Source: Aspidiotus rigidus (lineage: Eukaryota > Arthropoda > Insecta > Hemiptera > Diaspididae). Taken from it: a stretch of 64,000 bases of DNA. Shown here in pieces: positions 1,868 to 54,366 of the stretch (positions are counted from its first letter, which is position 1; each line of letters starts with the position of its first letter). The notes under the pieces are model-generated. The model was not told the DNA's origin, searched no databases, and saw nothing but the letters and a program-made list of their open reading frames with translations. Both the position numbers and the translations under genes were made by a program. The stretch spans positions 13,478,501 through 13,542,500 of the forward strand of contig JAVHKY010000001.1 of the NCBI GenBank assembly GCA_035079385.1, read 5' to 3'.

Positions 1868-2214
1868 AACCTGTTTACGATGGACCTGACAATCCGGAAC
1901 ACCTGAGACCGACTAAGGGAAAAGTTTGTCACCTGAGTTCAAAGATTAAACACCGGATTTGTAACGATGCCGTGAAAACTGCATATTGTCAACGCACTGG
2001 CTTCGTATTTTTGGAAAGCCGATCCGTGCAATCGGAGAAAAATTATTCGATCACGTACGGGGGCCGCTACAATTATGATATACCACCACAAATAGAACCG
2101 GCATGTATGTGTCCAACGATTCCTCCTCTGTACTTGAAAGACGGATCTATTCCCGGTGTAGTTACAGTAATTATCGACGGAGAAGTTGCGTCTGCTCTTG
2201 AAAATTCCATCTGA
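1868..2214 (+). CDS. Secreted four-cysteine family, member 1 (second exon only)
   Basis: This is the second exon of a small secreted-protein gene of the family repeated across the window. A strong acceptor (T11 tract, then TCTGCAG) ends at 1867 and reading starts in phase 1, as in all siblings. The exon encodes 115 complete residues and ends with TGA at 2212. It has the family spacing C-x10-C (VCHL...RICNDA) and the motif ACMCPTIPPLYLKD. The C-terminal SSG segment is altered to SIPG, the usual R-x-x-Y end is lost, and there is an extra Cys (YCQRT). An ATTAAA lies at 2561. Exon 1 was not found, so the model is partial; it could also be a decaying copy. Family membership is seen in the sequence; function is unknown. 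Confidence 0.75.
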
Positions 2215-3371
2215 TCATATGCACCAAACGCTGCTCGCGCGGCAAGTTTGCTGATGTAGCTGGGCACTCCGACATGCAATTTTTTGAAAGTTCAAATACT
2301 TTTCAGAGACGAGCCAGGGAAACCTCAAGAGAAAGAAGAAGTTTTCTCACTGTCGAGTTTTAGTACGTCCTCTTGATCTTGCTAAACACTCAACAGAAAG
2401 TACTCTTATTCACCACGTCGCAGAGGAGAACGCACAAGAATTCATGGGAACAAGTGGAGTCTTCATGTAGAAGTCATGGATCCATTCTGAATTGATCTGC
2501 CGTTAGGCCTGAATCCATCTTTATTGAATTGATTGTTATTTTGTGATAGTGATTCAAACGATTAAAGATTGTTAAAAAGAATGGCTCACAAAACATTTCT
2601 CCATATTATTTAACCCCTAACCAACAGACCAGCGCTCACGATGAGAGTCTTACAATTTATTCGTTTGATCTGCTCGACTGGGTTTGTCTGAAAAGAAGAT
2701 CAGGATATTGTTAGATATGAGTTTAAAACAACCTTTTCGTACTGAAGAATGAAACAAAGAGCGAAGGTACTGCGGGTTATAGCTGAAAAAGGCTGTGGAT
2801 AAAATTCAATTCAATAATATTTTGGTTATTTGGATGAAAAAACGTTTTAATTTTGAAAAACTCCCCTTTTAGCTAGGCCACTAATTACGTACCACCAACC
2901 GTCTCTTGAGTCCTATGAATGTTCCAGGCGTCCAATGTTTTTCTTGAATTTGAAAGGATGTGAAGGTGGTTAAAAATAAAAAATAAAATCTTGAACCTTT
3001 TTTCTCGAATTTGTAGGTTAGTTCAATTCATCACCCACCAGTGTTTCGACTAACTCGAGTGAAAATCAAGACAAAAGACAAAACTTATCCTAAAAAACTA
3101 TTTTAGCATTACATTCAGAAAACTTTTTTTCAAATATCCTCTGACAAACGATAATTCGATTATCTATGTAGGTTGAAAATTTCCTAACCATCAATAAGCT
3201 CAGCTTGAAAATTAGACTATAAGACTGGGATGGGTTTTGAGTACACGTGTACTCTACTGCGGAAAAAGATTAGCGTTCACGAGTATAGAGCAACTATTCT
3301 TGTTCTCTTCTATCGTCTTTGGGTTCAAGATCACAGGCGTAGCTCTTGTCGAAATTATAACCAAATATCTT
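2215..3371. other. Intergenic, no gene seen
   Basis: This holds the likely 3' UTR of the preceding exon, including ATTAAA at 2561-2566. The rest is AT-rich spacer with no ORF supported by splice sites or similarity. Confidence 0.5.
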
Positions 3372-3865
3372 CTACATCAATCCGAGGTTGCATATTTCAT
3401 CCACAATGTTGACGTATTCATCTCTCGAATGCTCTCCAGACATCAGAATGTAGCAATCGTTTTTACGAGGGCTTTTAACAAAAAACTTGTTTAATTCGGG
3501 ACATTTTAGCACCCTCGTTTTGATACTTTCGTGCTCTTGCGTACGAAATTCAACCATTTTCGTAATAATGTCAGGCACTCTACCTCCGAGAAATTGTATC
3601 GAATTATTTAAAGCTCGATCGCACAATGCTGATTGCCTATCTTCAGTCCAATTCACGAAAATCGGCTCTTGCCCTATGCTATCTAAAAATTAAAACGGTC
3701 TTAGAAATAGGCGCATATAATTGATAATTCTTAATCGCATAAAACATACGACCTAAAATTTCTTGTACCTGAAGCGAGAAACTCGTTCTCTAGTTCTTTA
3801 ATGCGATTACTACTGACAAGTACAATCATTGCGAATATCAACTTCGGAAACCACCTCGAGAACAT
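3372..3865 (-). CDS. Small secreted protein, divergent relative of the four-cysteine family
   Basis: This is a complete two-exon gene of 135 residues. Exon 1 (3865-3769) starts MFSRWFPKLIFAMIVLVSS, a signal peptide with a basic start and a hydrophobic core, and ends in phase 1 at a GTACAAG donor. An 86-nt intron follows, then TTTTTAG at 3683, and exon 2 (3682-3372) runs to the stop. Exon layout, phase and the segment ALCDRALNN match the KLxxCxxAL segment of the siblings on the plus strand. The first family cysteine is replaced by Val and there is no ACxCPT motif; instead CPELNKFFV sits at a similar place. Four cysteines remain in the mature part. It is transcribed opposite to most members. 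Relationship is inferred from architecture and one motif; function is unknown. Confidence 0.7.
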
Positions 3866-4342
3866 AGTAATCTAGATCAGAAAATTATAAGGATATGTCA
3901 ATTTTGGGGACGATTGATTTTATATTCACGAGATCGTTCGAGAAAATTGTAGTACCGAGAAGTGAGTTCCGAAAACTCTCTATCATTATGGCCTTCAAGG
4001 TTATCATGCATGTAATATGTTGATTAAGATTAGAGTAACTTAGCAGAACGAAAAATTCTTCTATAGGTATCTAGGTCTTTTCATTCAAGTAGATTTTTAC
4101 ACCCAGTCGCGGACTCATCGTCTACTGCAAGTTTAAGGTGAACATAAGAAAACAGTTTGGTAGAGTGGATTGATAGCTTGACTTGACTTCTTGTGGATTA
4201 TTCTCTGGTACCTTCTGTGCTCTGGATTGCTGATTAAATAATGCGTAATATCTAAGAAAAGGGAGAGTAATAAAAACACGACTGGATGGTTCCTCTTTAA
4301 TAAGATTGAATCCTCGAAAGTATTACAAGCCATTTTATAATT
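3866..4342. other. Intergenic, no gene seen
   Basis: AT-rich sequence upstream of the minus-strand secreted gene. It should contain that gene's promoter, but no clear TATA or initiator stands out. Confidence 0.45.
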
Positions 4343-4737
4343 GAGGGTTGGTTGGCACATAGGCACATAACAATAACAAAGATAGTCTCGAAATCACGAT
4401 ATATTGTCAGACCAGCAACATAAAGACATAAAAAACTCGAAAACTCAAAAAATATACGAAAAGAAAATAGGTATTAAAAAAGAAAATTATTAAAATCCTA
4501 AAACTAAAAAACTAAAAATAACGAAAACTCTTTTTTTTTTTTTGGTCAAGGAACGGTCGAGATGGAAACAAAATTTGAATGGATTTTAATAATTTTCTTT
4601 TTTAATATTTTCTTTTCGTGTATTTTATGAGTTTTCGAGTTTTTTACCGTATGTCTTTATGTTGCTGGTCTGACAATATATCGTGATTTCGAGACTATCT
4701 TTGTTATTGTTACGTGCCTATTTACCAACCAACCCTC
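4343..4737. mobile_element. Foldback element with about 150-bp inverted arms
   Basis: The left arm (about 4343-4500, starting GAGGGTTGGTTGG) is repeated in inverted orientation at about 4580-4737 (ending CCAACCAACCCTC). The arms are nearly identical over about 150 bp and separated by about 80 bp of low-complexity sequence with no ORF. The outer flanks both read ATT, a possible 3-bp target duplication. This is the structure of a non-autonomous foldback DNA transposon or long-armed MITE. The close match of the arms suggests a fairly young insertion. A transcript across it would form a long hairpin RNA. Confidence 0.85.
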
Positions 4738-5299
4738 ATTTATGGTTCCTCTTCCTCCATTGTAAGGCTATATGCCTATGAATGATAAACGATAAACTTC
4801 CGACGTTTTCGGCTTCCATTAATTACTATATACCTCTTCATCCACTAAGGAGAGAAAACTTATTTTTTTCATGTGAAGGATGAAAATATGATGCGGTCTA
4901 CTGAAATATTGGATTAGTTCTTACGATCACCATCCCCTCCCTCTCCTGTGGGACTGTACTGAAGACTCATCCCCAGCACTTTTTCTATTCGCTGTAATTG
5001 TGGAAACTTGAACGCCCACTATCCCGTGACCATGGGCGCACTCAAGACCGCGATGACTTCTACTGCTATTTTGAATCATTTCCTCCATGACGCTAGATAA
5101 CTTTTTCATGGTAGAACAAGAACCTAGCCTTGTGACTTTCCCGCCACTTTTCTAATTTCTTCTGCAATAACGGCTACGTTCGGCAAGAAGACTAGCCTTG
5201 ACGCATTGTCATTGTCCCCATCAAACCTTACTGCGTGGGAATGGAAAGATTCAATGATTTCTAAAGACTTTATAATTTGCGTTCACAGTTCTTGAGACC
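4738..5299. other. Intergenic, probably degraded repeat
   Basis: No gene seen. Base composition becomes more GC-rich from about 4930, continuous with the LINE remnant that follows, so the part after 4930 may belong to the same element. Confidence 0.35.
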
Positions 5300-5780
5300 T
5301 GTCTATCATTTGAGTCATCGTTGTCGTCATCTGGCTACCTTAGTGTGGGTAGATCCGTCACAATTTCTTGAAGAGTGGATGCGTGTGTGGCTGATTAGTC
5401 CAATGCGTGAAGCTGTAGTTCGACCGCATGTGTCGCATGTAAAGGGTGGTGGCGGCGGAACTGTTTGACGCAGCCCACACTCGACAAACAATCCTCCATT
5501 GTTGTTGCCCAGAGAGCTCCATAACGCACGATTTTCGCAGGATGATTCCCATGCTTCATCGATTTTTGCGTTTTTTCAGTGCTGCATGACATTGATTCTT
5601 GTACCGCCTCCGCTGCCCACCAGTGCGACTTGCCATACACCCTCCTGCAGTTCCCCGTACAAGAGCTATTTGGGTAACCGAGCATCGTCTATTCGCTTAA
5701 CATGGTCCACCTATCGCAGCAGCATTGATCGCGTTATCGTGCTCTCGATTGCTGGAGGACTCGACGGTTCGATATAAAGT
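5300..5780 (-). mobile_element. LINE 3'-end fragment with C2H2 finger
   Basis: On the minus strand at about 5480-5365 one frame reads FTCDTCGRTTASRIGLISH then TRIH, giving C-x2-C-x12-H-x3-H, followed by a stop. This finger with the SRIGLxSH core is common at the C-terminal end of LINE-derived ORF2 proteins in animals. The upstream part (5685-5480) is open in overlapping frames and is frameshifted. GC content is clearly higher than the surroundings, fitting a transposed sequence. The assignment rests on recall of the finger motif; it is a dead fragment. Confidence 0.5.
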
Positions 5781-6069
5781 AGCTAGTAGTAGCCAATTAC
5801 TAGCTAGTAGTAGTAGCTGTTAGTAGTAACTGTTGGTAGCAGCTAGTTGTAGCTAGTTGTAGCTAGTAGTACTTACGTAGTGGTAGTACCTAGTAGTAGC
5901 CAATAGGCTGGTAGTAGCTAGCTAGTGGTAGTAGTAGTAGCTGTTAGTAGTAGCTAGTAGTAATAGCTAGTAGTAATAGCTAGTAGTAATAGCTAGTAGT
6001 AGTAGTAGCTAGTAGTAGCTGGTTGCAGCTAGTTGCAGCTAGTAGTACCTAGTGATAGTAGTAGCTAGT
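5774..6069. repeat. TAG/TAGC minisatellite
   Basis: About 300 bp are built from TAGTAG and TAGCTAGTAG units, with variants such as TAGTAATAGC and TAGTTGTAGC. The array is imperfect and has no fixed higher-order period that I could define. Confidence 0.9.
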
Positions 6070-6928
6070 GGTTGTGATTCACTTGGCCCTTTCAGCACAA
6101 CTAGCGGTTGGCCAGGATCGGGTTCATTCGTTATCGCATGGGCGGTGCATTATTTTGCTCTCAACTTAATTCAGTTTAATACTGCTTATTATTGGCATGC
6201 CTGGACCGGTAGTAGATGTACCCGTCCAGTAACAACTTATTTCTTTCCACTGCAGGCCACATTTTACACACTGAGAGTAGTGAGAAGCTGGTTGCAGCCG
6301 GGGTGTTATTCTTTTTTGCATGCCATGGAAATTTCATAAGCTGAGGTAACAAGAATACAGAAATAGGCAATGAAAATCGTGTTAATTGTAACCGTCGATG
6401 CAAGCTGCGTATTTATCAGGCAAAATTGCTGGCCTGGAATTTTCGTGGGAAAAAATTTTCGTTAAAACGTCTTTGTGAAATGGTATTTGGGAGAAGAAAT
6501 TCTCGTAAAAATGTCATTCGTGAAATGTGCTTTTTGTGAAATTTATTTGGTGAAAAGGGGTGCTCAAAATATTTCATATCAGATTTACGCTAAACCAAGA
6601 AAGGGGGCGAATGAGCGGAGCGAGTGAGCCCTACGAATGCTGAAGGGTGATAGCCCAAAATGTATCATATTAGACTTTTGCCCCACAAAAATAGCTCAAA
6701 ATATTTTTCCCATAAATGTAGACAATTGCTCTATAGGCTTTCTCAGAAGCGTGACAAAAGGCGTGTAGTTCAATGAAAGTAGGGGCAAAAGTGAAGTAAT
6801 ATCTCACAAGCGCGCGCTTGACCTAGTAGAAGCCTCTAGATTAGAATATTTCAATACGACTGCTAAAATATAAGAAGGGGGGCATGAAACATGATCTTTA
6901 TTCATTTGGCTACGCCAGAAAATTTTTT
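6070..6928. repeat. Spacer with an interspersed repeat copy (GGGGCGAAxGAGCGxAGCGAG type)
   Basis: No gene seen. At about 6595-6640 lies ACCAAGAAAGGGGGCGAATG followed by AGCGGAGCGAGTGAGCC, and at 6888-6928 CATGAAACATGATCTTTATT followed by CATTTGGCTACGCCAGAAAA. Both blocks recur elsewhere: 28620-28745 (reverse), 38640-38820 and 57390-57640. This defines an interspersed, non-coding repeat family. Its termini could not be fixed by eye. Confidence 0.5.
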
Positions 6929-7780
6929 AAACAGGGAACCTGTTTTATTGGAGGGTAATTCGATGAAAAACGCTGAGCGCCGTCCGCCGGGCGCCGGGAG
7001 GAAAACGTTGGACTTGGAAAAATTTTCCACCTCCAAGCTATAGATGATAGGAGTGGACTTCTCTCTGATTCGAGCAGTATATTATACTGGGTTATACTAT
7101 GTATTATGCTAGGCTTATATGAGGTCCAAGCCTACTTTATAGTAGGTAGGTAGCTTTATATTCGATTATATTTTGTATTGTAGTAGGGTTATACTAGGTT
7201 CAAGCTTATAAATACTTGGCCTATACCCCGTGGGTGATTGAAAATCTGTGACTTTATGTATACCCCCCATTGTTATCCTACCTTAGGCCTAGTATAATAA
7301 AGCTAGTATAAAGTAGGCTTCGACCTCCGAATTTGCATAGCTTGAGGCAGGCCTATACCTTGTGGGTGAGTGAGAAATCTGCGAGTTATTTCAGCCTATA
7401 CTAGGCTTAATATAGACCTGTAGTAGGCTAAAGCCTCTTTACTAGATCCTACTACATAGTTTAAGTCCTAGTATTATAGAGCTAGTATAAAGTAGGCTTG
7501 GACCCCGTATTAGCATAGCTAGTATAAAGTAGGCTTCGACCTCCGAATTAGCATAGCTTGAGGCAGAGCTATACCTCGTGGGTGATTGAGAAATCTGCTA
7601 GTTTATTTCCACCCTTGCGAGTTTACACCCTCCCCCCCCCCGATGTGTAGTCTAAAGCCTCTGGTATACCTAGTATAATAGAGGTAATATAAAGTAAGGA
7701 AAGTAAGCTTGAGCCTAGTATAACCCTACTCTAAAGAAGTTCAAGCTCGAATAGTAAATACCCCAACAGGTTCCCTGTTT
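6929..7780. repeat. Block bounded by 15-17-nt hairpins, rich in TAGTATA motifs
   Basis: The block begins with a perfect hairpin AAACAGG-GAA-CCTGTTT at 6929-6945 and ends with AACAGG-TTC-CCTGTT at 7766-7780. The interior is dominated by repeated CTAGTATAA, TAGGCTT and AAAGTAGGCTTGGACC phrases in both orientations, with no ORF. It may be a non-autonomous mobile element whose ends are small hairpins. The same terminal word occurs at 11285 and 11753. Confidence 0.6.
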
Positions 7781-8289
7781 GCCTCAATCAACAAAGTTAA
7801 TGAAGGCAATCCCGAGCAGCTAGTCATGACTGCTGCGAGTTTTCTTCTGCACGAAGTTGAGATAGAAAGAAATCATTTTTCATAATTTTAAAATCCTTCG
7901 CTCAATGGGATCTTCTCTATGAGGGGGGGTACTCATTGTCGTGTTTCCTTGAATAACACTATAAGTACAGAATTTCGAACATTCTTCATCGGAATTTTAT
8001 TCGCACCTACAACATTAAAAATCACTTCAAGGTTATGGAAAAGTATTGAAAAGTAAACCCAGTGTATTACGTCACAATATTCTGAATACAAAAATCAAGA
8101 AAACAGGTGAAAATGTGAACAGGTGGAAGTTTACGAATGTCTTCCTCAAAATAATAGATTTTTCGTCTTATTACATACAGTGGAATCATACCAAAATCTA
8201 AATCGATGGAAGTCTATAGAGCAGATTAATCTAAATTCAACTGATAACAAGTGCTTAATGTACCTGTCAATTTTTCTCCACTCTCGTAG
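7781..8289. other. Intergenic, no gene seen
   Basis: AT-rich spacer containing the 3' side of the minus-strand gene that ends at 8290. Nothing else supported. Confidence 0.45.
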
Positions 8290-8729
8290 TTAAAAGAATT
8301 CGTTGGCATGTTTTAACAAAGCGATTTCACGTACGCGTCCCACAACGAGAATTTCAGTCTTGCCGTCTCGTAGGTAACGAATTCGTTCGAGCAAAAATAC
8401 AGAATGTTTGTCGCTAGGATCCTCGGAGACCAAAAATTCTACAATTGCCTTCTTGTACTCCGTAATGAAACATGGGAAAGGGGTGACTAAAACAGATTGT
8501 ATGTGGCGATACGCTAAGTCCGTATCGAGCGCTTGAAAAGTCACCTCAACGTCTTCTTCGCAGTTCGTATCCGCGGTTCTGTCGATTTCTTTTATATCAC
8601 CGAAATTGGGTATGGCTTCCTCGGATAGACTCGATCGAGCATTGTCCAAGAGACTGCAAAGACGTATTTTTTGATTTGCATTCAATGTGCATATAGGATG
8701 CGCTGAAGGCTTTTTTGCGGTGTATGTAC
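8290..8729 (-). CDS. Divergent four-cysteine family member (second exon)
   Basis: The exon begins after CTTCCATTCAG (acceptor ending at 8730) in phase 1 and encodes 146 residues before the stop. The first residues lead into HPICTLNANQKIRLCSLL. This has the exact C-x10-C spacing of the plus-strand siblings (HICxLxxEEKLxxC) and places this gene in the family. Downstream it differs: an NCEEDVEV segment and FPCFITE replace ACxCPTxPP. The FPCF element recurs in the neighbour at 9210. A signal-peptide exon was not found in the 8730-9200 interval, so exon 1 is missing, remote or decayed. Family membership is inferred from the spacing; function is unknown. Confidence 0.65.
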
Positions 8730-9209
8730 CTGAATGGAAGATGACCGTTAATTGAGTCAGGAAAACCTACCTACCAAAATATAATATTAATGAGCCTTGA
8801 AAACTGTCTTGTTTTTAGCAATGAACGCGCTGAGATTATCGATGGTGCATACATTCCCAGATACGGAAACCTAGCCTAAGGATGAAACAAGGGGAGATAG
8901 CAGAAGGGAGAAATATTTGACCTTATATAAGATGACTTTACTGGGGGTACCCTGGAAAAATATCTTCATCAGTCCTCTTGTGTAGGAGCTTTGTAAATCT
9001 CACAATAATGTCATCGAGAGTGAGGTCAGTGACCTTAAGGGATGGTTGTGACTCGAAAAAATGATTTTCCTGGAGGGGATCGTGACATGGGGACTTGAGG
9101 CTTGGAATAGTTTTGAGGAAATAGCAAAGAAGGAGATGAGTGATCACGGATCTATATAAGACGGTAGAGGCTCAAAACAATTGAAGCGGTTCCTCGCTGT
9201 CATTGTAAG
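8730..9209 (-). other. Spacer with an open frame of uncertain status
   Basis: Between the two divergent minus-strand genes the frame 9147-8938 is open and reads ...VTDLTLDDIIVRFTKLLH..., with protein-like composition. It has no ATG and ends at GGGTACC rather than a good donor. It may be an alternative or decayed exon of either neighbour. I cannot build a model from it. Confidence 0.25.
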
Positions 9210-10337
9210 CTATGCGATCACGCACACAGTCTCAACCAAATTACCTGCAGCCGATCCACTCTTATGGTATAAAAAATGCTTACGATGAAGTTGCGCAAAA
9301 ATTTTCTCCAAACTTCTGCGATTGCGGATCGATTGGTCGATAATGGGTGTGGGCTCGGCCAAGCCGAAGAGCTTGGCCTTGGACTTATAACCCCGTTGCG
9401 TGAATACAAACGCGTAGTCTTCGGTAAATCCGTACGTAATGAAGAATTCAGTACCATTATCTTCTACGAAACACGGAAACATAGCGATGATGTCGCTAAA
9501 ATCGCCTATTTCCACTTTGATTCCGACGAATTCGACTTCTTCCAATTCCGGTATGTCATCGCTGGTAGCTTGAATTCGGTGATGAATATCCTCGTCTCCG
9601 TACTCGTATTGCTTGGCGTGCAGAAGGTCTTTACAATATTCCTGTAACTTTTTTTTTACTTCGGTTGCTTTCTCGTCATCGTCATCATCGTCTTCGTCGT
9701 CGTCTTTATCTTTCTTATCCTTCCCTTCTTTCCCGTCCTTTTCCTTCCCACCCTTTTCCTTCCCACCCTTTTCCTTTCCATCCTTCTCCTTCTCCCCCTT
9801 CTCTCCCTTCTCTCCCTTCCCTTTTTTGTCTTTCTTTTTGTTTTTCTTTTCTTTCTTTTCTTTTTCTTTCAATTTTTCCTCGATTTCTTTAGGCCATTTG
9901 GCACCTTTTGGTTTCTCTCTTGCTCCCAATTGCTTGGCGAACGCTGAAAAGCGAAAAAAAAAAAAAAAATGGTAGATTTTTATAAATCCACATCAAATCG
10001 CGTACCTACGCACTTAAATTACCTTATTTCAATTATTTGAAGGTAATTTAGGAAAGAATTGAGAGGAAAATACAAAAGAAATGAGAATTAGTAATTGCTC
10101 TCTAAATCGATACTAGGGCTGTCTGAGATGGATTATCTCCAATTAGGAAAATTGAAAAAATAAGTACGTCAGTACCTACTACGAGGTCGGCATAATCTTC
10201 ATCCAAATCCGGGTACAAAGTGACGGTCAAAGGACTGATGGGATCTGTAGAAGCCGAATCAGAAGCCAAACGAAGATTATCAAAGGTGCCTAACAGTTGT
10301 AAATAAATATGAACTTCTGCACCCATTTTCACGGATA
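9210..10337 (-). CDS. Lys/Asp-rich protein with divergent family-type C-terminal domain (two exons, 5' end missing)
   Basis: Exon a (10337-10176) follows ATCATCAG and ends in phase 1 at GTAGTAG|GTACTG. Exon b (9943-9210) follows CGCTTTTCAG, also phase 1. The joined frame stays open and encodes about 299 residues. Exon b starts with about 70 residues of K/E/G repeats (KEKGGKEKGGKEKDGKE type) and an acidic run of D residues. KKLQEYCKDLL then resembles the family KLxxCxxAL segment, and IAMFPCFVED matches FPCF of the gene at 8290. The N-terminal exon holds AEVHIYLQLL, perhaps a relic of the VHICxL element. No start exon was found; an ATG-bearing candidate near 10494 is out of phase. The lysine tract may be a repeat expansion inserted into a family member. 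Nuclear or extracellular location cannot be told. Confidence 0.6.
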
Positions 10338-14716: not shown

Positions 14717-15249
14717 ATGGAATTGATCAAAATCTCACCTTGGCGTGGTATTTTCATTTTGCTGGTCGCATTGAAGATGGTCCATGGTATGGATAAAAAT
14801 TTCGAATACAACTTCGAATACGCCGTTTTTGTAGAGAAGGGTGAGTCTCAATATTACTATCTTTTTCGTGTGTCGCTTGTTCTTCTCGATGAGCGTATAA
14901 TATTTTTTTTTTAATTTTAGCGGACAATCATACACCTAAAGCGGAAGCGGATGTACATATTTGTCAATTGAACAATGAAGAAATATTGGAAATCTGCAAG
15001 GAAGCCACCAGCGATCCACTTCTTCGGTCTACCAAGGTAGATTTCGTCGAGGGTCCTCCGCCGGGAGAAAAAAAAGTTTACGAATTTACGTTAACCAGTT
15101 ATCGGTATCAGCGTGGACCTCCAATCGTAGAGACGGCTTGCTCGTGCCCAACAAATCCGCTCCTCTATCTTCGCGACACATCTTCTGGAAACGCAATTGA
15201 GGCCTACGTAAGCCTTCGCGAATCCTACTCATTGATAAAATCACGATAA
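14717..15249 (+). CDS. Secreted four-cysteine family, member 2 (complete)
   Basis: A complete two-exon gene of 150 residues. Exon 1 (14717-14840, 124 nt) encodes a signal peptide (basic start, core GIFILLVALKM, likely cut after VHG). The aromatic segment FEYNFEYAVFVEK follows, then a phase-1 donor AAGG|GTGAGT. After an 80-nt intron, exon 2 (14921-15249) starts at TTAATTTTAG. The mature part carries VHICQLNNEEILEICKEA (C-x10-C), a middle segment ending KVYEFTLTSY, and ACSCPTNPLLYLRDTSSG then AYVSLRESY. Exactly four Cys in the mature part predict two disulfides. ATTAAA overlaps the region just after the stop (15259). It is a typical, intact member; secretion is well supported, the role is unknown. 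Confidence 0.9.
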
Positions 15250-17330: not shown

Positions 17331-17535
17331 AACAAGTACACAGTTGAGGTTAGTGATTTCATGATCAACATCCCATATTAAAAAGCTCTCAGATGTACTA
17401 CTCTGCTTTCGGCTCATGAGTAATTCAAGGTGTTACCCCATCATCAGTTGTATCTTTACTGAAAAATTAGGCTTTCAACATTTGCCTTTGCAATCTCCGT
17501 CTACTCCCAGAATTTTCTTCTCTCCATACGGTTTT

Positions 17536-19770: not shown

Positions 19771-19807
<37 letters not shown>

Positions 19808-20617: not shown

Positions 20618-21199
20618 ATGAGACTTGAAAACGCCTTTCTGGCAATAGTCTTACTCGTTTTATGGTCTACGACGTGCTTAAACCAACCTCAGTATTATGC
20701 TCATAAATACCGACTAGTGTATGGCGTTTACGTTAAAGAAGGTAAGATTTCAGATTCTTCTGAGTTTTGAGGTCGGTCTAAGTTGATGGGGGGGGGGGGG
20801 GAGACGAAAGTCTCAGCAATAATATTTGAATGTTTATCTCCTCTTATTCAAGCGGAGAATCAAACAGAAGTTCCACCAGCAGAGGTTCATATATGCGAAC
20901 TAAAGGATGAAGAAAAATTGCAAATGTGTAAAGAAGCGATGGAATATCCTGAGCCCATCCAACATAAAATTCAATTCGTCGATGGCCAACCAGTCGGAGG
21001 AGTCAAGACGTACGAAGTTAAATTAGGCGGTTGGGCTTATATAGATAAGCCACCCATTAATGTATCCGCGTGTCTATGTCCGACAGACCCTCCTCTCTAC
21101 TTTAGGGATAATTCGAGTGGAATATTTGTAGATACTTATTTTGGTTTTCGACAGGCTTATGGCGAGGTGCCGGATACTTCTCTTCCCGGATTCCGGTGA
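20618..21199 (+). CDS. Secreted four-cysteine family, member 3 (complete)
   Basis: A complete two-exon gene of 156 residues. Exon 1 (20618-20741, 124 nt, the same length as in the gene at 14717) encodes a signal peptide with core AFLAIVLLVLW. The aromatic segment HKYRLVYGVYVKE follows, with a phase-1 donor GAAG|GTAAGA. The 111-nt intron contains a G12-type run. Exon 2 starts at 20853 after TATTCAAG. It carries VHICELKDEEKLQMCKEAM (C-x10-C), KTYEVKLGGW, and ACLCPTDPPLYFRDNSSG followed by YFGFRQAY, then a 13-residue tail. There are four Cys in the mature domain apart from one at the end of the signal peptide. ATTAAA occurs at 21268. It is an intact member. Confidence 0.9.
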
Positions 21200-21760: not shown

Positions 21761-22485
21761 ATGAAACTTCATAGTATTTTCTTCTTTCTCATTTTATTAA
21801 TATCATTTTCAAATATGATTGACGGAGCGTTGTACAAATACAAGTTCACGTATGCTGTTTATATCGAACGAAGTAAAATGTATTTCTATATTAGGTACCA
21901 TAAAGTAGTAAGTTAGAATAATCTAACATTATCATCGATCAACATCACGTTCGTCATTCACTCGGTATCTCCTGTGCTTGCGCAATATTACACTCTTTCT
22001 GCTTCTTCGCTCGACAAAATTCCCATTTCTTTGGTTACATCCTAGAAAAAAAACGGACTGACCTGAAGTGATAAAATGCGGCAATCGTATTAGATTATTA
22101 ATGAATATTCTTCTGTCTGTTTTTCCTATCAGCGCCTCAAAATGAAACACAAACCTTCGACAGTAAAGTACGAATTTGTCGGTTGGAAAAAGAGAAAAAA
22201 CTGGAAATATGCAATGACGCATTACGGGAAGAATTCGCTGTGGAAAATGAAGTCAAGCCCCTCGATTTCAAAATACCCGTATTAAAAGAGTACTTTTACG
22301 AAATCAAGAGAAGTGGTCTCGAGTATGAAAATATGCCGCCTATCAAGACTACAGCTTGTATTTGTCCAACAAACCCACCTCTTTACCTGGAGGACAGCTC
22401 TTCTGGAAAAGAAGTGACTATTTACCTTGTTCTACGAAGTACTTATGCTGACGTTGTGGGTGCATTTCCCGATCAGTACAAGTGA
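21761..22485 (+). CDS. Secreted four-cysteine family, member 4 (complete)
   Basis: A complete gene of 154 residues, 561 bp downstream of the preceding copy. I chose the ATG at 21761 because it gives a 112-nt exon 1 like the copies at 25651 and 35597; an in-frame ATG at 21698 would add 21 residues before the signal core. The signal core is IFFFLILLISF, followed by YKYKFTYAVYIER, with donor CGAA|GTAAAA in phase 1. The intron is 260 nt. Exon 2 (22133-22485) has VRICRLEKEKKLEICNDAL (C-x10-C), YFYEIKRSGL and ACICPTNPPLYLEDSSSG, then YLVLRSTY. It has four cysteines in the mature part. Function is unknown. Confidence 0.88.
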
Positions 22486-25650: not shown

Positions 25651-26502
25651 ATGGAACGCGACCAAATTTTCTTCTTTTGTATCTTTCTTTTATTCGTTGA
25701 AAATTTCATGGACAACGTGACTTACAAATACGAATTTCGGTTTGTCTCTTCAGTCACAAGAAGTAAGAAGTTTCGAACGCCACTGATGTACTTAGCGCTA
25801 AAAAGAATAATTTTCCTCTCCTTGATGCTGTGTGCAATGTACCTACCTTCTCGCACTATGTCATCTGACGAGTCGAAAGGATGTGTTACGCCTGGTAGTA
25901 GTTCGTAAAGAATTCAACCGATGAATTTCGGAAGATATTTGAATGTGTTAGAAAAAAAAAAAACAGAAAATGGTATCTGATTTAGCGTTAATGACTCAAT
26001 ACATGTGTGTGATCAATTATTTATCTACTGACAATTTTTTTCTTCATCAGCGAGAACCATGGATTTGGAAAAACTTGAAAAACCAGCTTCAGAGCAAACC
26101 AACGAAACTCACACTCGTATCTGCCAACTGCCAGATGAAGAGAAGCTTAGGATATGCAAAGAGGCCTTAAACGATGAACTTGTTTCGGATACTCAGATTA
26201 AACTTTTGGAGAATACGACTGTATTACCGCAGCAATTTTACGATGTCCTAATGTCCAGGTATATGAGCGCACCACCGGTGACTTTAGGAGCTTGTTTATG
26301 CCCAACAAATCCACCCGTGTACCTAAGAGATGAATCCGTTGAAAACGAAATATTCGTTTATGTAAGTCCGGAGGAAAATTATTTCGATGCGTTGGAAGAG
26401 TTGAAAGCTCAAAACAGTAATGAATCCACCACAGAATCGAAGACAACAAAGTCAAGTCTAAAAGATATTACTATCTCACTACCATCACCTTTTCCAACTT
26501 AG
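25651..26502 (+). CDS. Secreted four-cysteine family, member 5, with Ser/Thr tail
   Basis: A complete gene of 187 residues, the longest of the canonical members. Exon 1 (25651-25762, 112 nt) has signal core IFFFCIFLLFV and then YKYEFRFVSSVTR, with donor AGAA|GTAAGA in phase 1. The intron is 288 nt. Exon 2 (26051-26502) carries THTRICQLPDEEKLRICKEAL (C-x10-C), QFYDVLMSRY and ACLCPTNPPVYLRDESVE. The SSG triplet is changed to SVE. A unique C-terminal extension of about 45 residues is rich in E, S, T and K (NSNESTTESKTTKSS), likely disordered and possibly O-glycosylated. The four mature cysteines are present. Function is unknown. Confidence 0.88.
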
Positions 26503-28619: not shown

Positions 28620-28760
28620 GAGCAAATAAATGAAGATCATGTTTCATGTCTGCTCCCTTCTTGGTTTAATATAGCTGTAGTCTACTGTAAGTTGAGCTAT
28701 CTAATCTACGAGGGCTCATTCGCTCCGCCCGTTTACCCCGATATGGATTACATTGAACTG
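28620..28760 (-). repeat. Interspersed repeat copy (reverse orientation)
   Basis: Reads in reverse the two blocks seen at 6595-6928: CATGAAACATGATCTTCATT and the GGGCGGAGCGAATGAGCCC-type block. It is an internally deleted copy of the family. Confidence 0.55.
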
Positions 28761-30355: not shown

Positions 30356-31185
30356 GATTGATCATGTTTCATATCTATCACCATGGGGTAAAATATAAGT
30401 CTAGTACCTATGCTGTATCAAAAAGTGGTGTTATGTGAGGGGGTGATATATAATTTTAAAAGCTTTTAGTACGCACAAATTTTACACATACAAGCGCTCT
30501 CGACTAACAAGCCATCATAAAGATGAACTTTAAGCAACTAGCTCATGAAAGATAAAAGATACTCGTATGGACAAGGAAAAAAAAAAAACCAAATAAATCA
30601 TGAAAGATGAATAAATGCGGGAGTAAAAAACTGCAGTAATAGAAAATAATAGTACAAAAGAACAAAAACTAGGGGGCGGGGAAGATAAATAAATAAAATA
30701 AGGAATAAACCCCTATTCTTTTTGTTTTTTTTTTTTGTGTGTTTTTTTTATAATTTTTCTCTGGTTGGATGCAATTAAAAAAAAAAATTAACCGCAGAGG
30801 AGAGAAATCAAGTACTGAGTCAAGGGATAAGAAAACATAAAAGCCTAAAAAATAAAGAATGAAAAAGGTAAAAAAGAAGTCACCGTCAAGGGTGCCGTGA
30901 TCCCCTTGGTCCAATGAAGAAACCCCCCTCAAACTTTAATTTCTTGTAGCTAAAAAAAAAAAAAAAAAAAAACATTGAATTTTACAAAGAATCATCTTCA
31001 TGAAAATGGCCTCGCGGCACCCTTGCACACCTAACAAAAATCGGGAAAGGTCACAAATGAGAACAAATCAAAAACAAAGGAAAATAAATACATAAAGGGA
31101 CAAAGTAAAAAAAATCAAAAAGGTCAAAAACTGAAATAGTCAAGTTCATTCAGTTTGATCTTTGGGGAGAGAAGAAGGATAAAGG
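30356..31185. other. A-rich low-complexity spacer
   Basis: Mostly A-rich sequence with poly-A and poly-T runs (30570, 30720-30750, 30951-30972). It may be the tail of a retroposed sequence. No gene seen. Confidence 0.5.
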
Positions 31186-32535
31186 TGATGGATGACACCT
31201 CGACTTGGACAAGAGTAATATTGAAAACATTACAACCGCGATCTTTAAAATTGAAGGACACATACCTTCCTCCGGGTTCAATTCTGTGCTCGTTTGATGT
31301 CGTTGGGCTTTTTCCCAATATTCCCAAGGCTACCACTATGCAACAAATAAGCAAACTGCTCGTGGAATGTGGTACTCCTCACAATGAATTTGGCGAATTT
31401 TTCGACCTATTGAACACCTGTTGGTCACCTAATTTTTGCAAGTTTGATGATAAATATTTCGAGTTCCCTGAGGAGGTAGGGATCCCTATTGGTTCCCCCT
31501 TAGGTTCTCTTATTTCGGAGGTTTTTATGTCTAAATTTGAGGTTGACCTGTTTTCTTCGGGCCAGGTGTTTTTGAATCACGTTTTCTATTGGCATAGGTA
31601 CGTGGATGACATATTGTGTGCGTGGACCGGTCCTGCGGAGCTCCTTAGCGAGTTTCTCGCCTATTTAAATAGTTTATACCCGTCCATCAAATTCACTCTT
31701 GAAGTTGGCGGTTTATCAATAAATTTTCTGGACTTGACCATATCCGTCATTGACGGTGTCCATGATTTCGGTATTTACCGGAAAAGTACTTCGACCGATA
31801 TTGCTACCACGGGTACCTTTTGCCCATAAAGTTGCTACATATCGCCTCACTCAGATCCCTCTGAGTGAAGTAGCGTTTAATAAGGAACTCGTGACGATAA
31901 AGCACTTGGCTAGAGTGAATCAGGTCAAAGTGGACATTGACCTTATGGTCCGTAGGAGACTTACAAGAAAAAGTCTCGATTCTACTACCTCCCTCCCCCG
32001 ACACTTGCATCTTGATAGGCATAAACGGTGGATTAGGATGCCGTTTTTGGGGAAGTTTTCTTCGGAGTTGAGCCGTGTCCTCCGTCCCTTTGGTTTCCGG
32101 CCGGCGTTCTATAGTACCAATGCGATGAAGAGCCTTTTAGTCAAGTTAAAGGATCCTATACCGATGACCGAGAGGGGGGGTGTTTATAGGGTGGCCTGTG
32201 GTGATTGCCCGAGCGTGTACATAGGGATGACTAGCCGTCAATTCAAAATTAGAGTTGATGAACACAGGAAAGTCTGGGAAAAAAGAAAAGTAGGGGAGTC
32301 GGCGTTTGCTGACCACTTAATTGAATGTGATCATAGCCTCAAAGAGGGATCCGAAGTTCTCCTCCACAGGGAAAAATCTTATTTCAGGCGATTGGCATTA
32401 GAAGAAATTGAAATTCATCGTCACCGAAATATTAAAGACATTACCGTGTTGAACAGGTACATTCCTGAGGCGGGATTGATTGAATTAGTCTATGAGGATG
32501 ATTCACATTTCGATGACTCGCTGGTTCAGTCATGA
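31186..32535 (+). mobile_element. Penelope-like element, RT plus GIY-YIG, 5'-truncated and frameshifted
   Basis: The first frame (to 31829) encodes the RT palm: LCSFDVVGLFPNIPKA (motif A), EEVGIPIGSPLGSLISEVF, and WHRYVDDILC, which contains the catalytic YVDD. The second frame (31750-32535) continues with a basic linker and a GIY-YIG nuclease: GGVYRVACGDCPSVYIGMT then FKIRVDEH. Comparison with the copy at 50 kb shows that about six codons are missing, with a frame change, near 31805-31830. The N-terminal third is absent. The nuclease core looks intact. It is the best-preserved Penelope copy in the window. Confidence 0.9.
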
Positions 32536-34453
32536 CCTCCTCGTTCGTTGTTACTCGTTCTTGTTGGTGTTGGGTTCAGTCGCTTTCTATACCGTGAGAA
32601 TGGCTGTTTAGCCGAAAGCGCTCGGATTGTTTGATTTTATTGCGGTTCTAGTATTTGTGTTCCTTACTCTTCGTGAGTATATTTCTCTATGATATGGATG
32701 ACCGTAAAATTAAAAAACGCATTGATTCTATTCTCGTACGACCTGGGAAGTAATGAAAATCACGTGTGAGCATTTCCTCCATAATTAACCTCATGAGATC
32801 GACGCTGTCTACAAGTATGATGCAGCGAACGAGTAAGAGATAAGAGAGATATAGAGAAAGAAGCTCACAAGACTCAGAGGTCACAGCAAGAAGTCGCAGC
32901 CGAGGCGTGTCTCTGAAGCCCAGGGGTCTCCGGTATCCTGCAAGGAAGAGGGAGACTTAGAGGTCATCCTAAACATTCAAAGATAAGGCTCGTCTCCCAG
33001 GCCTTGATATACCCCAAACCTCAGAGGCCATACCAACTCACAAATGACATGTCCTTCCAAAAGGAATGAAGACTCAGAGGTCATAGCAAGTATAGATAAA
33101 GCTTATCTCCAAAGCCATGAGATACTCCGAAACTCAGAGGCCGTATCAATCCACAAATGACGTGTGCTTCAAAGAGAAATATGAAGATTTAAAGTATTGA
33201 AGTAGGATTAGGTTGATCATCTTTCGAAAACCCTTTCCACAATTCCTTATTTTGTTTTTTCATCTCCCCTCCCCCCAGTTTAGGATTGTTGGATGGATTT
33301 TTGGACGGAAAGCATTTTAATCGCTGAAAACGACTTCACTCAACATGTTTACTAACATTACAATAGCTGTTTTAGGAAATATAATTACATTTACTGATAC
33401 TATAAATGAAAAATTTGAAAAATGAGCGGTTCATGTCTGAGTTTATTTCAAGGGCGTCTGTTCGATTAATATTCTGTGACGTGACCACACTGTTAACATT
33501 AGACAAAAGTACCCGAAAAAGCTGTCGATCAGCTTTAGGCAGCTTCACGATTGGCATAGGAATAACATTCTGATCATTCATTCATACTCGAAAAAAAAAA
33601 ATAACGAACTCCAGAATAAAAAATGCAGTTTCATTGATAAGAAAATTGCTAAAGTAAGCATGTTATTGATACTTATTATGATGTCACTGGAAAATCAGTC
33701 GATTTGGCCAGTGGTGATAACCTCTCCCCAGGACTAAGAATTTCACTTTTATCATAAAATTTTGTTTGAAACCTCCTCCAGAAAATTCTTTTGCCAAGGA
33801 AGTCACATTTGAAATTTTTTAGTTGAACCCCTCTCCTCGCCTCCCTCAAGAATATTCTATATACGCCACTGGATCGGGCCAACTCTCGATCTTATATTCT
33901 TAGCCCCATGACGAAAAATGAGAATATTATGTTAATGAAGTTGAATAAAATGCCATTTTTTGAACCTTTCAATACATCTAAGGATATACTTTAGTAATCA
34001 ACTTCAGTTGGCAGACGCTTTAGTTCTCATTCTCCATCTAATAAGCTAACAAATGACATCAATTTGAAGTATATGTTCGGCAGGTTAAATGATGGTGTGC
34101 TATTTTTGACAAGTTTGAGTCATCGTCTTCCCTTTACGCAGCCTATTCGAGCCAGCAGACTCTCAGCAGGTTGCTTTACTTCCATTAAATTAAATGTGAT
34201 TTACATGCTACTTATTTTGTAGTTCACCCAACTGTGGGCATAAGCCTCCCCTATCCTCTCCCAACGGATTCTGTCCCTTGCATCCCTCCTCACACAATTA
34301 TGACATACTATTAAATGAACCGAGTGAACATTTTTATGTTCCCTCGGCTAAATGGGTTTATGGCAACCTCTAAGTCTATTAGGGTAGGATCGCAGCTAAG
34401 ATAGGGCCGGATCTAGCCCCGCTTGGTCCAGGTAATATAATGCAAACTTTTTT
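32536..34453. other. Penelope 3' flank, then spacer
   Basis: The first about 150 bp are probably the element's 3' untranslated part. From 32880 to 33170 a decayed repeat contains the phrase ACTCAGAGGTCAT/CCTCAGAGGCCATACC three or four times, with ACAAATGACRTGT twice. No gene is supported in the remainder. Confidence 0.4.
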
Positions 34454-34820
34454 TAGCGGGAAACCCGCTATCCCTTTTGTTGGGGGTACTTCCAGGAATT
34501 TTTCGTCCGCGAGCACGAGCGAGGTTGGTGACGTCACGGAGAGGGGAGGAGGACTTGGAAAAATTTCGGCTCTCGAGCTATATATATGATAGGAGGGGGA
34601 CTTGGAAAAATTCCTACCTCCGAGCTGTATATGATAGGAGGGGGCCTTAGAAAAATTCCTACCTCCAAGCTATATATGATAGGAGGGGGACTTGGAAAGA
34701 CTACGGCTTCCTTGTAATTGCAGCAAATGTCGACCCTCTAGCCATATATGATAGGAAGGGGACATACAAAAATTCCTACCTCCGAGCTATATATAATAGG
34801 AGGGGGACAGGGGATCTAAT
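34454..34820. repeat. Terminal hairpin plus tandem GATAGGAGGGGGACTTGG array
   Basis: A perfect hairpin TAGCGGG-AAA-CCCGCTA at 34454-34470 is followed by TATCCCTTTTGTTGGGGGT, the same order as in the reverse copy at 45421. From 34545 to 34810 the unit GAGCTATATATGATAGGAGG, usually followed by GGGACTTGGAAAAATTCCTA, is repeated four to five times with a period of about 55-60 bp and small variations. Confidence 0.8.
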
Positions 34821-35596
34821 TTTTTTCTTCAATTATGAAAAAAAATTGACCAGATGACTGAAATTTATCTCGTTATTATTTTAAGATTGCGGTCAGCATA
34901 TTTGTAATATGCGCGCAGCAGAACACAGCGAAAAATTGAAAAATTTTCTGCCGCGAAATGCAGCAGAAAAAAAATTCATCTTTACAAAAATTTACGCGAC
35001 GCGACGCAAGGCAGCATCGCGCACGAAAATCTGCCGCAGAAAGCTCCGTAATGTTTTGTGGTGAAATTCAAGATGCTGTCAGCGCCTCAAAATACGCTGA
35101 TATTCTTTTGATCTCCCAGTAGTCCCAGTGAACAATCACGTGAGAGCTTTTTACGTGGCAAAGATGAAGACTTTTCGACTTGAAAGCTACTCAGAAATTT
35201 GTTCTAAATTATCGTCTTGTTCATGAATCTTAAAATTTTCATATCAAAAACTACAAGATTTTTCATACTTAATTTTTTGTGACCTACACGTGGGCACGTG
35301 AGCATCGTGATAATTTCAAGATGATACCGAACAACATATCAAGCTGTACGAAATACTTGCTCACGTGCATTAAGTCTACGTATATCTGTAAACTTTATCT
35401 CTGTCTTATCGCACTCCACTACGGAGTTTTTTCGAATCGCTTTTTGAATTTTTAAACGCTACGTAAATTAAGGCTATCTGCCGATCTTGCGTACAAAACA
35501 TAGATAACGAGTAAAGTTTTTCTACTTGTCATTTTTTTTGCCGTTGCATAATATCCGCATGAAAACTTTATAACAATTTCATTGGAGCGACTGGGA
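34821..35596. other. Intergenic, promoter side of the next gene
   Basis: Contains a GC-richer patch with repeated GCAGCAGAA / GCGACGC words at 34910-35040, then AT-rich sequence upstream of the gene at 35597. No gene seen. Confidence 0.4.
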
Positions 35597-36142
35597 ATGA
35601 GATTAATGGCAGTTCTCCCATTTTTCTCCTTCGTCGTGTTAGCAAGAATCGTGATGAATGTAGCAAACTATGAATACCGATATGAATACACTTCATACGT
35701 TGGAGAAGGTAAGTATTGATACACTTTCACAAAATATATCGATCCCAAAGAAAATTTATTAACGTGTTGATTTAATTCAGTGCCAGATCAAAACGAAAGC
35801 GTATCAGCGAATGAAGACGTTGTACATATATGTCGACTGAATCCTGAAGAAAAATTGAGCATTTGTACGGAAGCACTAAAAGAAGCACTAAATAAACCAT
35901 TCGTAAATCAAACCGATATTCAACTTGTTTATAGTCCACAAGTACACGAGGAGAAGGTGTACGAATTTGCCCTAACCGGTTGGAATTATATAAACAAAGG
36001 GCCAATCATTGCAGCAGCTTGTATGTGTTCGACAAGTCCTCCTATCTATTTGAGGGATAATTCCAGTGGGAACTTCGTGGATGTTTACATAAGTTTCAGA
36101 GATACTTATGGTAAGAAAAACGTGATCAAATTAAATTACTGA
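35597..36142 (+). CDS. Secreted four-cysteine family, member 6 (complete)
   Basis: A complete gene of 157 residues with the shortest intron (72 nt). Exon 1 (35597-35708, 112 nt) has signal core MAVLPFFSFVVLARIV and then YEYRYEYTSYVGE, with donor GAAG|GTAAGT in phase 1. Exon 2 (35781-36142) follows TTTAATTCAG. It carries VHICRLNPEEKLSICTEAL (C-x10-C), KVYEFALTGW and ACMCSTSPPIYLRDNSSG, then YISFRDTY and a basic tail. The usual Pro of CPT is Ser here (CST). There are four mature cysteines. It is intact; function is unknown. Confidence 0.9.
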
Positions 36143-36686
36143 AATAATGTTGGGTAATTGAGACCCGGTATGTTGATGGATAAGTAAGAGACGGGAGATA
36201 CTCAGGGCTTCCAAACATGTTTAAAAATTTCATCAAATCCTCTTCTCAAGGCTTGCTCTCAGCAGTTTCATTAGCCAGGATAAGTTGAAAGTCCTACTTT
36301 CGATACCACCACTAGTTTTACCATCTGAAATTTTTTCTTATTTCAGTCCCTCAAAGCTTAGTGTAGGTCCGAAGTGTAAGTAATAACTTGCAAAAAGAAA
36401 CCGCTCTCCTCCGTTGGTTTTCCAGATACCCTTTCTCGAAATCTGTTGTACAAACTTTCTCGGCTTCTCTTTTCATTGGTATCTTGAAAACCCACGAATT
36501 TGCTCTGAGCTAAAAGAATTTCGAGAAACAGAAATTCAAGTACGAGATTCTCACCATCTATTGAAAATCAAGATATATCCGTATACCAATTTCCATTTTA
36601 TAAAAATTTTGATATTTACACACGGTAAATATTTACTTCGGCCGTTTAAAACACTGTACACGATTTTTTTTTTTTCTTTTTTTCAG
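36143..36686. other. Intergenic, no gene seen
   Basis: 3' flank of the preceding gene. The ORF at 36414-36701 has no support. A missing signal-peptide exon for the next family member could lie here but was not identified. Confidence 0.35.
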
Positions 36687-39600
36687 TTAAACACATCGTA
36701 AATCGTGAAAATTTTGCTTTCAGGTTTGAATACATCGTGTACGCAAGACCCAGTAAGTTGAAAGTAATCCTTAATTTTCTTATAATAAATTGGATCCGTG
36801 ATTTGAAGCTCACCCTTAATGACGTCACACTATCCTACATGTATTCAGATGAGATAGCCTATTTTTATTAGTCTCTAATGTAGGTCGAGGTAATTGATAA
36901 CGACGCAAAAGTTGAACGGGTACGTTTCCTGAGAATCCCTCCCTCCTCATCATACAGAACCAGTTCCCGTACTTGAAAAATGCAATTTTGTTCGTGCAAG
37001 GATCTAGACTAAGAACAAAAACAGAACCACTTTGGCTTTACCCGCACTCCTTAAAAAACAAATTCTTTATTTGCCGACGTTTCGGCCAAAGTGGTTCTGT
37101 TTTTGTTCTCAGTTCCCATACGTTCCCCCTCAATTTACCAGAAGGACAGTGGACGTTCAGAGAAAGGTTCTCTCCTGAAAATCCTAGTTTACTGTCTGTC
37201 GGTGAGATCCAAAAATACTCGTACTATTTATGAAAGTTGGAGAGTACAAATAAGACGCAGCTTGTATTTCAATATGCTAAAAATTCATCTAAGCAAGAGC
37301 TGATTCGGGGAGGGAGTAGTATTTGAAGAACAGTTAGTTCAGACTCGCGGATATGTGGCGATGACTAAGCGGGGGTGAATTTAGAAGATGATTTTGGAAG
37401 GGAAATTTCGACACGACTTTTCGCCATTAAACTTTTTTCATAATTGGACTTCTCTTCTGTCCTTATTTTTTGATATTTTCTCAAGTTGGGGAAAGGGGTC
37501 GTCTCGAAATCGATGAACCATATCGACTCGAGAGAGGGATGCTCCAAAGGGTAACCTTAAGTTGCAAATATCCCAGAAAATATAAAAGCAACCAACCCGA
37601 CAAGAAGGAATCAGGACTGATTTGAAGAGTAGGGTCAGGAAGGAGGTATTAATTCTCACTGAGGCTGATAAGGGGAGTGCTATTGGGATGATAGAGAAGT
37701 CTTCTCACATCACCAAAGTTTACAGAGTGCTTAAGCAATGTGGAGCTAAGGAAAATGGGCTATGTAAAAGAGGTTCAAAGTGTTATTAACAAGAGAAAAT
37801 TTATCATTGAGAGTCCATGGGCGAGAAGAGCCTTCCTCGAGCCTAACTCGTGCCCCCTCTCCTACACGAATTGCCTGAGATGCACAAAAAAGACGATCGG
37901 ATACTTCCCGTCGTACCCTTTATGTCTTCTCTCACCTACTCTCTTACCAAATTTTTGAATCGGCTGTTTGAATCCCGTGTCGAGTCTTCCTCCGGGTTCG
38001 ATCCTTTGCTCATTTGATGTTGTTGGTCAGTTCCCGGATATCCTCAAGGCTACCGCTATGCAACGTATGGGGGATCTGCTTGTTAAATTTAATATTTCTC
38101 ACGAAGAGTTGGAGGAATTTTAGACATGCTTAGTCTTACCTTACGCCAGTTTGAAATTCTGCGAGTACACCCACCCCTCCTCCAAATTAAAGGACTTGGA
38201 AAATTTTTGGAAAAAATTTCTTTCCCTCAATAGTATACCCTGTAGGTGATTTAGAAATTTACAAGTATACCTGTACACCATCCTCCTTCCGCCAAATTAA
38301 AGAGCTAAGTAACAGAGGTGCTTAGCTAAGTCGAAGCCTTAGCCGTTAGCCGAGCAATTTTCATCCAAAATTAACTAGCCGTTAGCTAGTTAATGAAATT
38401 ACGTTAGCCATTAGCCATTCAAATTGGAATTACTAACGGCTGATATTTTCTCTTCCCCACACCTCACCCCTCCGCATTAAAGTGACCCGTCCCCTCCTTT
38501 CAGCCATTAGCTTTCTGCTCTTAGCCTTTAGCCATTCTATTTGTACCCAGCCGATGAGACTGGATTGGCCGTTAGCTAATACGATTGGCTAGACAGCCCT
38601 GTTAAGTAGCTTAGAGTATAGTATACTAGCTTACACTAAACCAAGATTGAGGGACGAACGAGCTTTCAGCTAAGTAGCTTAACGTATACAGTATACTAGA
38701 TTTACACTGGACCAAGGTTGGAGGCGAACGGAGTGAGTATAAAAGTAACGCCAAAGACAAACACACATTGTGACAAACATGAAACCTGATCTCCATTTAC
38801 TTGGCTCTGCCAGAAAATTTTTTGATCTGCTTAATATCTGCTGGTTTCCCAATTTTTGCAAATTTAATGATAAACTTTCTGAGTTCCCTGAAGAGGTAGG
38901 CATCCCTATCAGTTCCCTTTTGGGTCCTCTCATTTCGGAGGTATTTATATCCAAATTTGAACTTGATCTTTCCTCTTTGGGCCAAGTGTTGTAGAGTCAT
39001 ATTCTATTATTGACACAAGTACGTAGAGAACGCGACATTCTGTGTACGTAGAATGGCCCTCAAGATCTCCTCAGTGAGTCTTATGTACAAAAATTTACGT
39101 TTAAAGTCAAAGGATCCACTATAAATTACTTGGACCAGATAGAGTCCTTGAGTAGGTACAGAAAAGATAAGTACTTCAACTGATATTGTAGTCCACGGGT
39201 TGTCGTTTTGTCCTGCTGCCTATAACGTTGCTATTCTTAGTAGCACGATTCACCGACTAACCCAGATCTCGTTGAGTCAATCCGTTTTCCATAAGAAATT
39301 GACTATCAAAAAATTCTTGGCCAGAGTGAATGTGATCAATTTGGACATCGATCTTCTGGTTTGTAGGAAAACTATGCAGCGAAATGTCTTATTCCACCTC
39401 CTCCCTCCCTCGCGAATCCAACTGTGATAAGAAGTGCTGCATCGGGCTCCCGTTTCTGGGTTCAGTTTGCTCTCCGCCTCCTTTGGGTTTCGTCCAGCAT
39501 CTTACATCCCGGTTACTGGAAAGGTATTATTTGTCCAGTTAATGGACCATGAATGGAGTACAATTGTGGTGACGTTTATATAGGGGACTCCTCCAAACAA

Positions 39601-40011
39601 ACAGTACGTAGAAATCGCTTCTTTAATTTACACAAAACGATAACTGTTTCTTTTTCTTTGTTTTGAACAGCATCAGCCCCAGTGATTCCTTTCGACGCAA
39701 ACGTGCGAGTCTGTCAGATGAACGAAGAAGAAAAGCTTCAAATGTGCAGAGAAATTCTTGCTCAGCCATTTCCTAAGACTTATGGCGTAAAATATCAAGA
39801 CGGTTATGGCCCACCGCTACTCCAAGAACTAATGTACGAAGTGAAGATGGCCGACTTCGAATACACTTTCAAACCACCTTCCTTTTTTGCAGCATGTATG
39901 TGTCCAACATTGCCTCAAACATTCATCGGAAGTAGATACGTTGGAAAATACTTATATGTATATGTAATTCTACGTGAAGAATATTTGCCGTCCGAGTTGG
40001 ACTATTATTAG
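36687..40011 (+). CDS. Secreted four-cysteine family, member 7 (long intron, start unresolved)
   Basis: The second exon (39671-40011) is secure: acceptor TTTTGAACAG in phase 1, VRVCQMNEEEKLQMCREIL (C-x10-C), MYEVKMADF, ACMCPTLPQT, and the ending VYVILREEYL. The SSG segment is lost and replaced by SRYVGK. A matching upstream exon lies at 36687-36752. It reads FRFEYIVYARP, the aromatic segment typical of exon 1, and has a phase-1 donor CCCA|GTAAGT. It is preceded by TTTTTTTCAG, and its own frame upstream of that T tract is poly-Phe without ATG. Either a separate signal exon exists or the start was lost. The about 2.9-kb intron contains a Penelope remnant. Linking the two exons is inference. Confidence 0.6.
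37620..39610 (+). mobile_element. Penelope-like remnant, interrupted
   Basis: Fragments in order on the plus strand: VLILTEADKGSAIGMIEK (37645), LHELPEMHKKDDRILPVVPF (37858), SFDVVGQFPDILKATAMQ (38010), then after a gap NFCKFNDKLSEFPEEVGIPI with SEVFISKFELDL (38850-38985), and FCPAAYNVAI onwards to about 39420. Between 38122 and about 38785 non-Penelope repeat sequence is inserted. Many stops and frameshifts show an old dead copy of the same subfamily as the copies at 31 and 50 kb. It lies in the putative intron of the flanking secreted-protein gene. Confidence 0.8.
38122..38820. repeat. Repeat inserted in the Penelope remnant
   Basis: Contains CTAACGTTAGCCATTAGCC-like words in many permutations (38320-38590), then the GGCGAACGGAGTGAG and CATGAAACCTGATCTCCATT blocks that define the interspersed family at 6595-6928. 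It interrupts the RT frame of the surrounding Penelope copy, so it is the younger insertion. Confidence 0.6.

Positions 40012-49056: not shown

Positions 49057-54366
<5,310 letters not shown>

Follow-up and report, generated by a model that had tools for sequence, protein, structure and literature searches.

A family of predicted secreted one-domain proteins in Aspidiotus rigidus, single in a gene array and apparently in runs elsewhere

A 64,000-nucleotide stretch of the Aspidiotus rigidus genome (hereafter, the window; positions 13478501–13542500 of contig C1, JAVHKY010000001.1, in an assembly of 441 Mb and 102 contigs) was found to contain an array of related genes for small, predicted secreted proteins. 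With moderate confidence, we interpret these as secreted proteins built from one small domain, which is single in the array and arranged run-wise at other places in the genome, and which likely serves as a scaffold for binding or inhibition outside the cell. That the family itself is real is nearly certain.

Seven exons in the window, all on the plus strand, combine the front motif C-x10-C with the back motif A-C-x-C-[PS]-T-x-P (motif starts at 2101, 15136, 21068, 22354, 26290, 36017 and 39892). Both motifs are kept in all seven, at the positions reported in a first-pass annotation of this DNA, and the common alignment frame, with C, C, Y, P, A, C, C, T and P invariant and columns that are on average 41% identical, supports its proposal that the seven genes form one family. 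The string PLYLRDxSSG, which the same annotation placed after the back motif, holds as a consensus but occurs letter for letter in no member. The joint motif pattern matched seven times in the window and not once in 100 sequences of 64 kb simulated with an order-2 Markov model, and a chance origin was therefore rejected.

The gene structure that had been proposed, consisting of a signal-peptide exon, a phase-1 intron and a mature exon, was recovered for genes 1–6; in each of them, in silico splicing yields a single frame that stays open from the signal peptide to the stop codon. The signal-peptide exons, with phase-1 donors, lie 190–58 bases before the window start in gene 1 and, on the plus strand, at 14717–14840 (gene 2, ending in a Y/F-rich tail), 20618–20741 (gene 3), 21761–21872 (gene 4), 25651–25762 (gene 5) and 35597–35708 (gene 6). 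The phase-1 introns of genes 1–6 are 1925, 80, 111, 260, 288 and 72 nucleotides long, respectively, the last at 35709–35780. The second exons, also on the plus strand, are located at 1868–2214 (gene 1, the helix and sheet part), 14921–15249 (gene 2), 20853–21199 (gene 3), 22133–22485 (gene 4), 26051–26502 (gene 5, with a Ser/Thr-rich tail and an acceptor maybe a few bases further 3'), 35781–36142 (gene 6, the structure of which was modelled) and 39677–40011 (gene 7). A search for the signal exon of gene 7 found none; the sequence upstream of this gene is retroelement-like. The stretch at 37900–39650 (plus strand), upstream of gene 7, is related to the reverse-transcriptase-like frames described below. 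Secretion thus holds as a prediction, with signal exons in six of the seven genes.

The array had been described as seven genes over 38 kb. All seven are present, but the true array is larger and comprises nine genes over approximately 72 kb, because one extra gene lies on each side of the window (L013 upstream on the minus strand and L014 downstream on the plus strand). A candidate signal exon accompanies each of the two. A Kazal-type inhibitor domain following a low-complexity stretch (L013 4023–4580, plus strand) adjoins the array. The array domain exons are repeated, inverted, on contig C24 (nine pairs), where two of the nine paired loci are exact copies, and a 6-kb comparison gave 99.75% identity. 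In a comparison covering the seven window genes, made on seven locus pairs and a 6-kb stretch, the differences between contigs C1 and C24 lie outside the exons, except for one column at the first base of L028. This column is likely an edge artefact, because the difference is absent from the comparisons of L022 and L054, which overlap it. We read the C24 copy as the second haplotype of the array, although it is possibly a recent duplication, and the 441-Mb assembly may consist of two haplotypes.

Relatives of particular array genes are found in other assemblies, which most likely represent other species. P0001 pairs with gene 3 (93/114 identical residues), P0003 with gene 4 (64/111), P0002 and P0004 with gene 2 (78/103 and 67/102) and P0005 with gene 1 (63/80). 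In the tree, all five proteins group with the array genes they pair with, which number four; the support is starred for genes 1, 2 and 3 and is 93/98 for gene 4. Because the outside proteins pair with particular array genes, the array paralogues are likely older than the species split. The ratio of non-synonymous to synonymous substitution rates (dN/dS) was calculated for six pairs, of which only C11b–C11c, at moderate divergence, is readable, with a ratio of 0.33. The g3–g6 pair gave 0.34 near saturation (synonymous divergence, dS, 1.38), and the g4–C29 pair gave 0.44 at a dS of 0.08, with the front missing from the C29 copy; C11b–C3 has no synonymous change, and g3–g2 and the C25 pair are saturated. 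These results indicate purifying selection on the family, few though the readable pairs are, and the ratio of 0.33 and the outside relatives together speak for real, constrained genes.

The first-pass annotation regarded the strong differences outside the motifs as those expected of fast-evolving exported proteins (saliva, venom or chemical interaction). The signal peptides, the tandem arrangement and the low identity among paralogues (17–49% in the comparisons made) would suit a role as feeding or defence secretions that diversify against their targets. However, the dN/dS of approximately 0.33, the absence of exon differences between the apparent haplotypes and the recognisable counterparts of four array genes in other assemblies all point in the other direction. 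Rapid evolution was rejected on the dN/dS results, with their one readable pair, and on the haplotype exon comparison. Since dN/dS is a gene-wide average, it is compatible with selection on a few sites; even so, we consider the saliva or venom explanation quite improbable.

The family extends well beyond the array. Searching the whole genome with gene 3 gave 52 matches at E ≤ 10, of which 32 were at E ≤ 0.01. None of the 52 contains an internal stop, and a pseudogene array was rejected on this ground. When a copy from the runs described below (a module) was used as the query, 111 matches at E ≤ 1 and 69 at E ≤ 0.01 were obtained, haplotype pairs counted in. They form clusters on contigs C24, C25, C2, C20, C44 and C49, and three genes of the window array were matched directly. 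By our own reading, five of the 69 module matches contain stops, and some modules may therefore be dead or misread. An iterated profile collected 39 distinct sequences at E < 0.001 within the DNA that was read. Three of them, namely one haplotype copy, one fragment and the duplicate reading of a single place, were removed, which left 36 distinct domain exons. Fifteen of these exons lie inside a cluster at 2.08 Mb on contig C24 and 21 outside it, the nine array genes among them. The domain front is missing from two of the 21, L018 (contig C11) and L037. The latter (C29:10172854) is a near copy of gene 4 without the helix start.

Comparison of the members identified a conserved frame consisting of the second and fourth of the motif cysteines (Cys2 and Cys4), a Tyr and A-x-x-C-P-T-x-P. 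Cys2 and Cys4 are kept in all alignment rows long enough to judge, and among the 38 rows informative for Cys1 and Cys3, 21 have both, 16 have neither and one (L051, which carries an additional cysteine) is mixed. Among the module rows, 10 of 13 have Asp or Asn at the Cys1 position and 14 of 15 have Phe at the Cys3 position. Because Cys1 and Cys3 occur or vanish jointly, disulfides Cys1–Cys3 and Cys2–Cys4 are likely, and we infer that these bonds would staple the helix to the CPTxP strand. Fifteen of the 16 rows lacking both cysteines come from one cluster, the other being L045, and the independent events may therefore be few. The motif set put forward at the outset as the definition of the family thus marks one branch, and a larger branch occurs in runs without Cys1 and Cys3.

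The cluster at 2.08 Mb on contig C24 (L052, L053) contains 16 module exons, one of them weak. A phase-1 donor directly follows a tail of the Y-x-x-K-x-V-x-x-I type in 11 of the 16, a phase-1 acceptor candidate is present in 11 of the 16, and five neighbouring pairs are separated by approximately 74 to 87 nucleotides. Given these donors, acceptors and short spacings, the runs are most likely multi-module genes, and the existence of a strung form is very likely. An outside relative of the strung branch, P0006, was also found (62% over 86%). When anchored at the donor, the tails of the signal exons match those of the modules: none of 5000 shuffles reached the observed mean in a test with 11 donor-supported module tails (split codon excluded), two of which score below zero. 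The single-domain gene therefore resembles a strung gene with only one unit, and the tail strand, the helix and the sheet would together make up the natural domain. On contig C25 (8.70–9.46 Mb), 16 of 22 module matches cover only one half of the query, first or second, as if the domain were split by an intron.

Runs of modules with short gaps might also be expected if the proteins were secreted for a structural purpose, as in egg covering, cuticle, silk or cement; the strung modules would then form a matrix and the single domains would be small partners. The low dN/dS and the recognisable counterparts of the array genes elsewhere suit a housekeeping structural role as well. Matrix repeats are often alike, whereas the modules differ strongly from each other, with 22–37% identity to the first module, and we regard a structural function as unlikely.

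The earlier statement that the pattern falls outside recognised families is consistent with our searches of Pfam, NCBIfam and PDB sequences with family members, in which no family exceeded the cut-off. No description of the family was found in the literature, in a search that did not extend to subscription journals and eukaryote protein databases, and the strings ACxCPT, CxCPTxP and CPTxPP had no occurrence among the literature matches listed. CS-alpha-beta peptides pair C-x3-C in a helix with C-x-C in a strand, which differs from the front spacing of C-x10-C in all seven array genes. Emfourin (PF20242), a bacterial metalloprotease inhibitor, matched weakly over the helix region in three of 10 modules (best E 0.012) and was absent from the matches of the 17 array-type and outside members; membership was rejected because the three scores (16.4, 16.3 and 12.7 bits) are below the curated cut-off of 27.

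Cystatins deserve closer consideration. The predicted structure model is weakly cystatin-like, with weak fold matches to affimers and monellin and, over the core, to multicystatin 4lzi, an affimer and a chain of the meprin-fetuin-B complex. Similar to type 2 cystatins, the family has a small secreted domain in which one helix is predicted to precede an antiparallel sheet, and cystatins also have multi-domain forms (potato multicystatin, 4lzi). Cystatins carry a conserved Q-x-V-x-G loop, and gene 3 contains such a string between the helix and the next strand. The members might therefore be divergent true cystatins, that is, cysteine-protease inhibitors of this lineage that lack the classical motifs. 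However, Q-x-V-x-G is present in only one of the 42 family rows (Gly occupies the corresponding column in 15 of 25 single-domain rows and 11 of 15 module rows), and the family cysteine positions differ from those of type 2 cystatins. Pfam Cystatin (PF00031) did not match any of the 17 array-type and outside members at E ≤ 1 or any of ten modules at E ≤ 5, a search whose filters drop most weak matches, whereas in the genome it found five places, none of them a family member, and the genome's own four cystatin loci keep QVVAG and W. The family–cystatin profile comparison scored 11.35, within the range of 60 column-permuted or reversed controls (up to 15.54), although its power is limited because the cystatin side consists of four sequences only. 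Cystatin membership was rejected on these three results, and a divergent cystatin origin appears very doubtful.

We propose instead that the domain acts as a scaffold for extracellular binding or inhibition, whether single or strung. In the model, the helix packs on the antiparallel sheet, and conserved turns are predicted at two sites, around [VT]-G-x-x-K-x-Y and at CPTxP; together, they would likely form the contact surface. The two inhibitory loops of cystatins have the same sequence order as these turns. Strung copies would provide many binding sites per chain, whereas single copies would act alone. More broadly, it seems about evenly balanced whether the family represents an extracellular domain superfamily that has had no name so far. 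Its phase 1-1 exon module, with a removable disulfide, would have spread in one lineage into single-domain arrays and giant strung proteins and would have become a home-grown scaffold for binding, much as cystatins or Kunitz domains are. Secreted families that are large and lineage-specific often act where an animal meets its food, hosts or microbes, and many are nameless. In this one the construction is visible, with an exon-module that occurs alone and apparently also in runs. Together with the natural series of forms that carry or lack the second pair of cysteines, this allows direct tests of the disulfide pairing, of the module boundary and of the binding loops. The family profile will also allow others to annotate such genes. 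The tick salivary families of TickSialoFam 2.0 (PMC9779611), as described there, resemble the family in being secreted and lineage-specific, and some have four cysteines.

Several other features were noted. A frame on the minus strand of the window (8290–8766) with a C-x10-C front and no CPT motif is a possible, unproven distant relative: its best score, 63 against member L044, was not reached in 1000 shuffles (maximum 62), and the family profile gave an E value of 0.44. A 260-amino-acid open frame on the same strand (9210–9992), with a long Lys/Glu/Gly-rich low-complexity start, has an FPCF segment in common with it, and the pairwise score is within the shuffle range (26/300 as high). Two plus-strand frames in the window (31140–32535 and 49919–50911) are reverse-transcriptase-like (narrowly below the cut-off of Pfam RVT_1, with E values of 3e-6 and 4e-5) and presumably Penelope-like; a frame with a weak GIY-YIG match overlaps the former. 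A long beta-lactamase-like frame (L010 3756–5738, minus strand; Pfam Beta-lactamase, E 4e-52) resembles a long frame in the opposite orientation (L011 1867–3765, plus strand). A 608-amino-acid open frame near a chance pattern match (L006 1193–3016, minus strand) had no Pfam match at E ≤ 0.01. Contig C45 starts with TTAGG repeats. Finally, COX1 is repeated every ~13.38 kb in four contigs, which seem to consist of a small mitogenome copied in tandem; in the 4 kb read, the AT content is 87% and the gap between cox1 and the following cox2 is too short to hold a tRNA gene.
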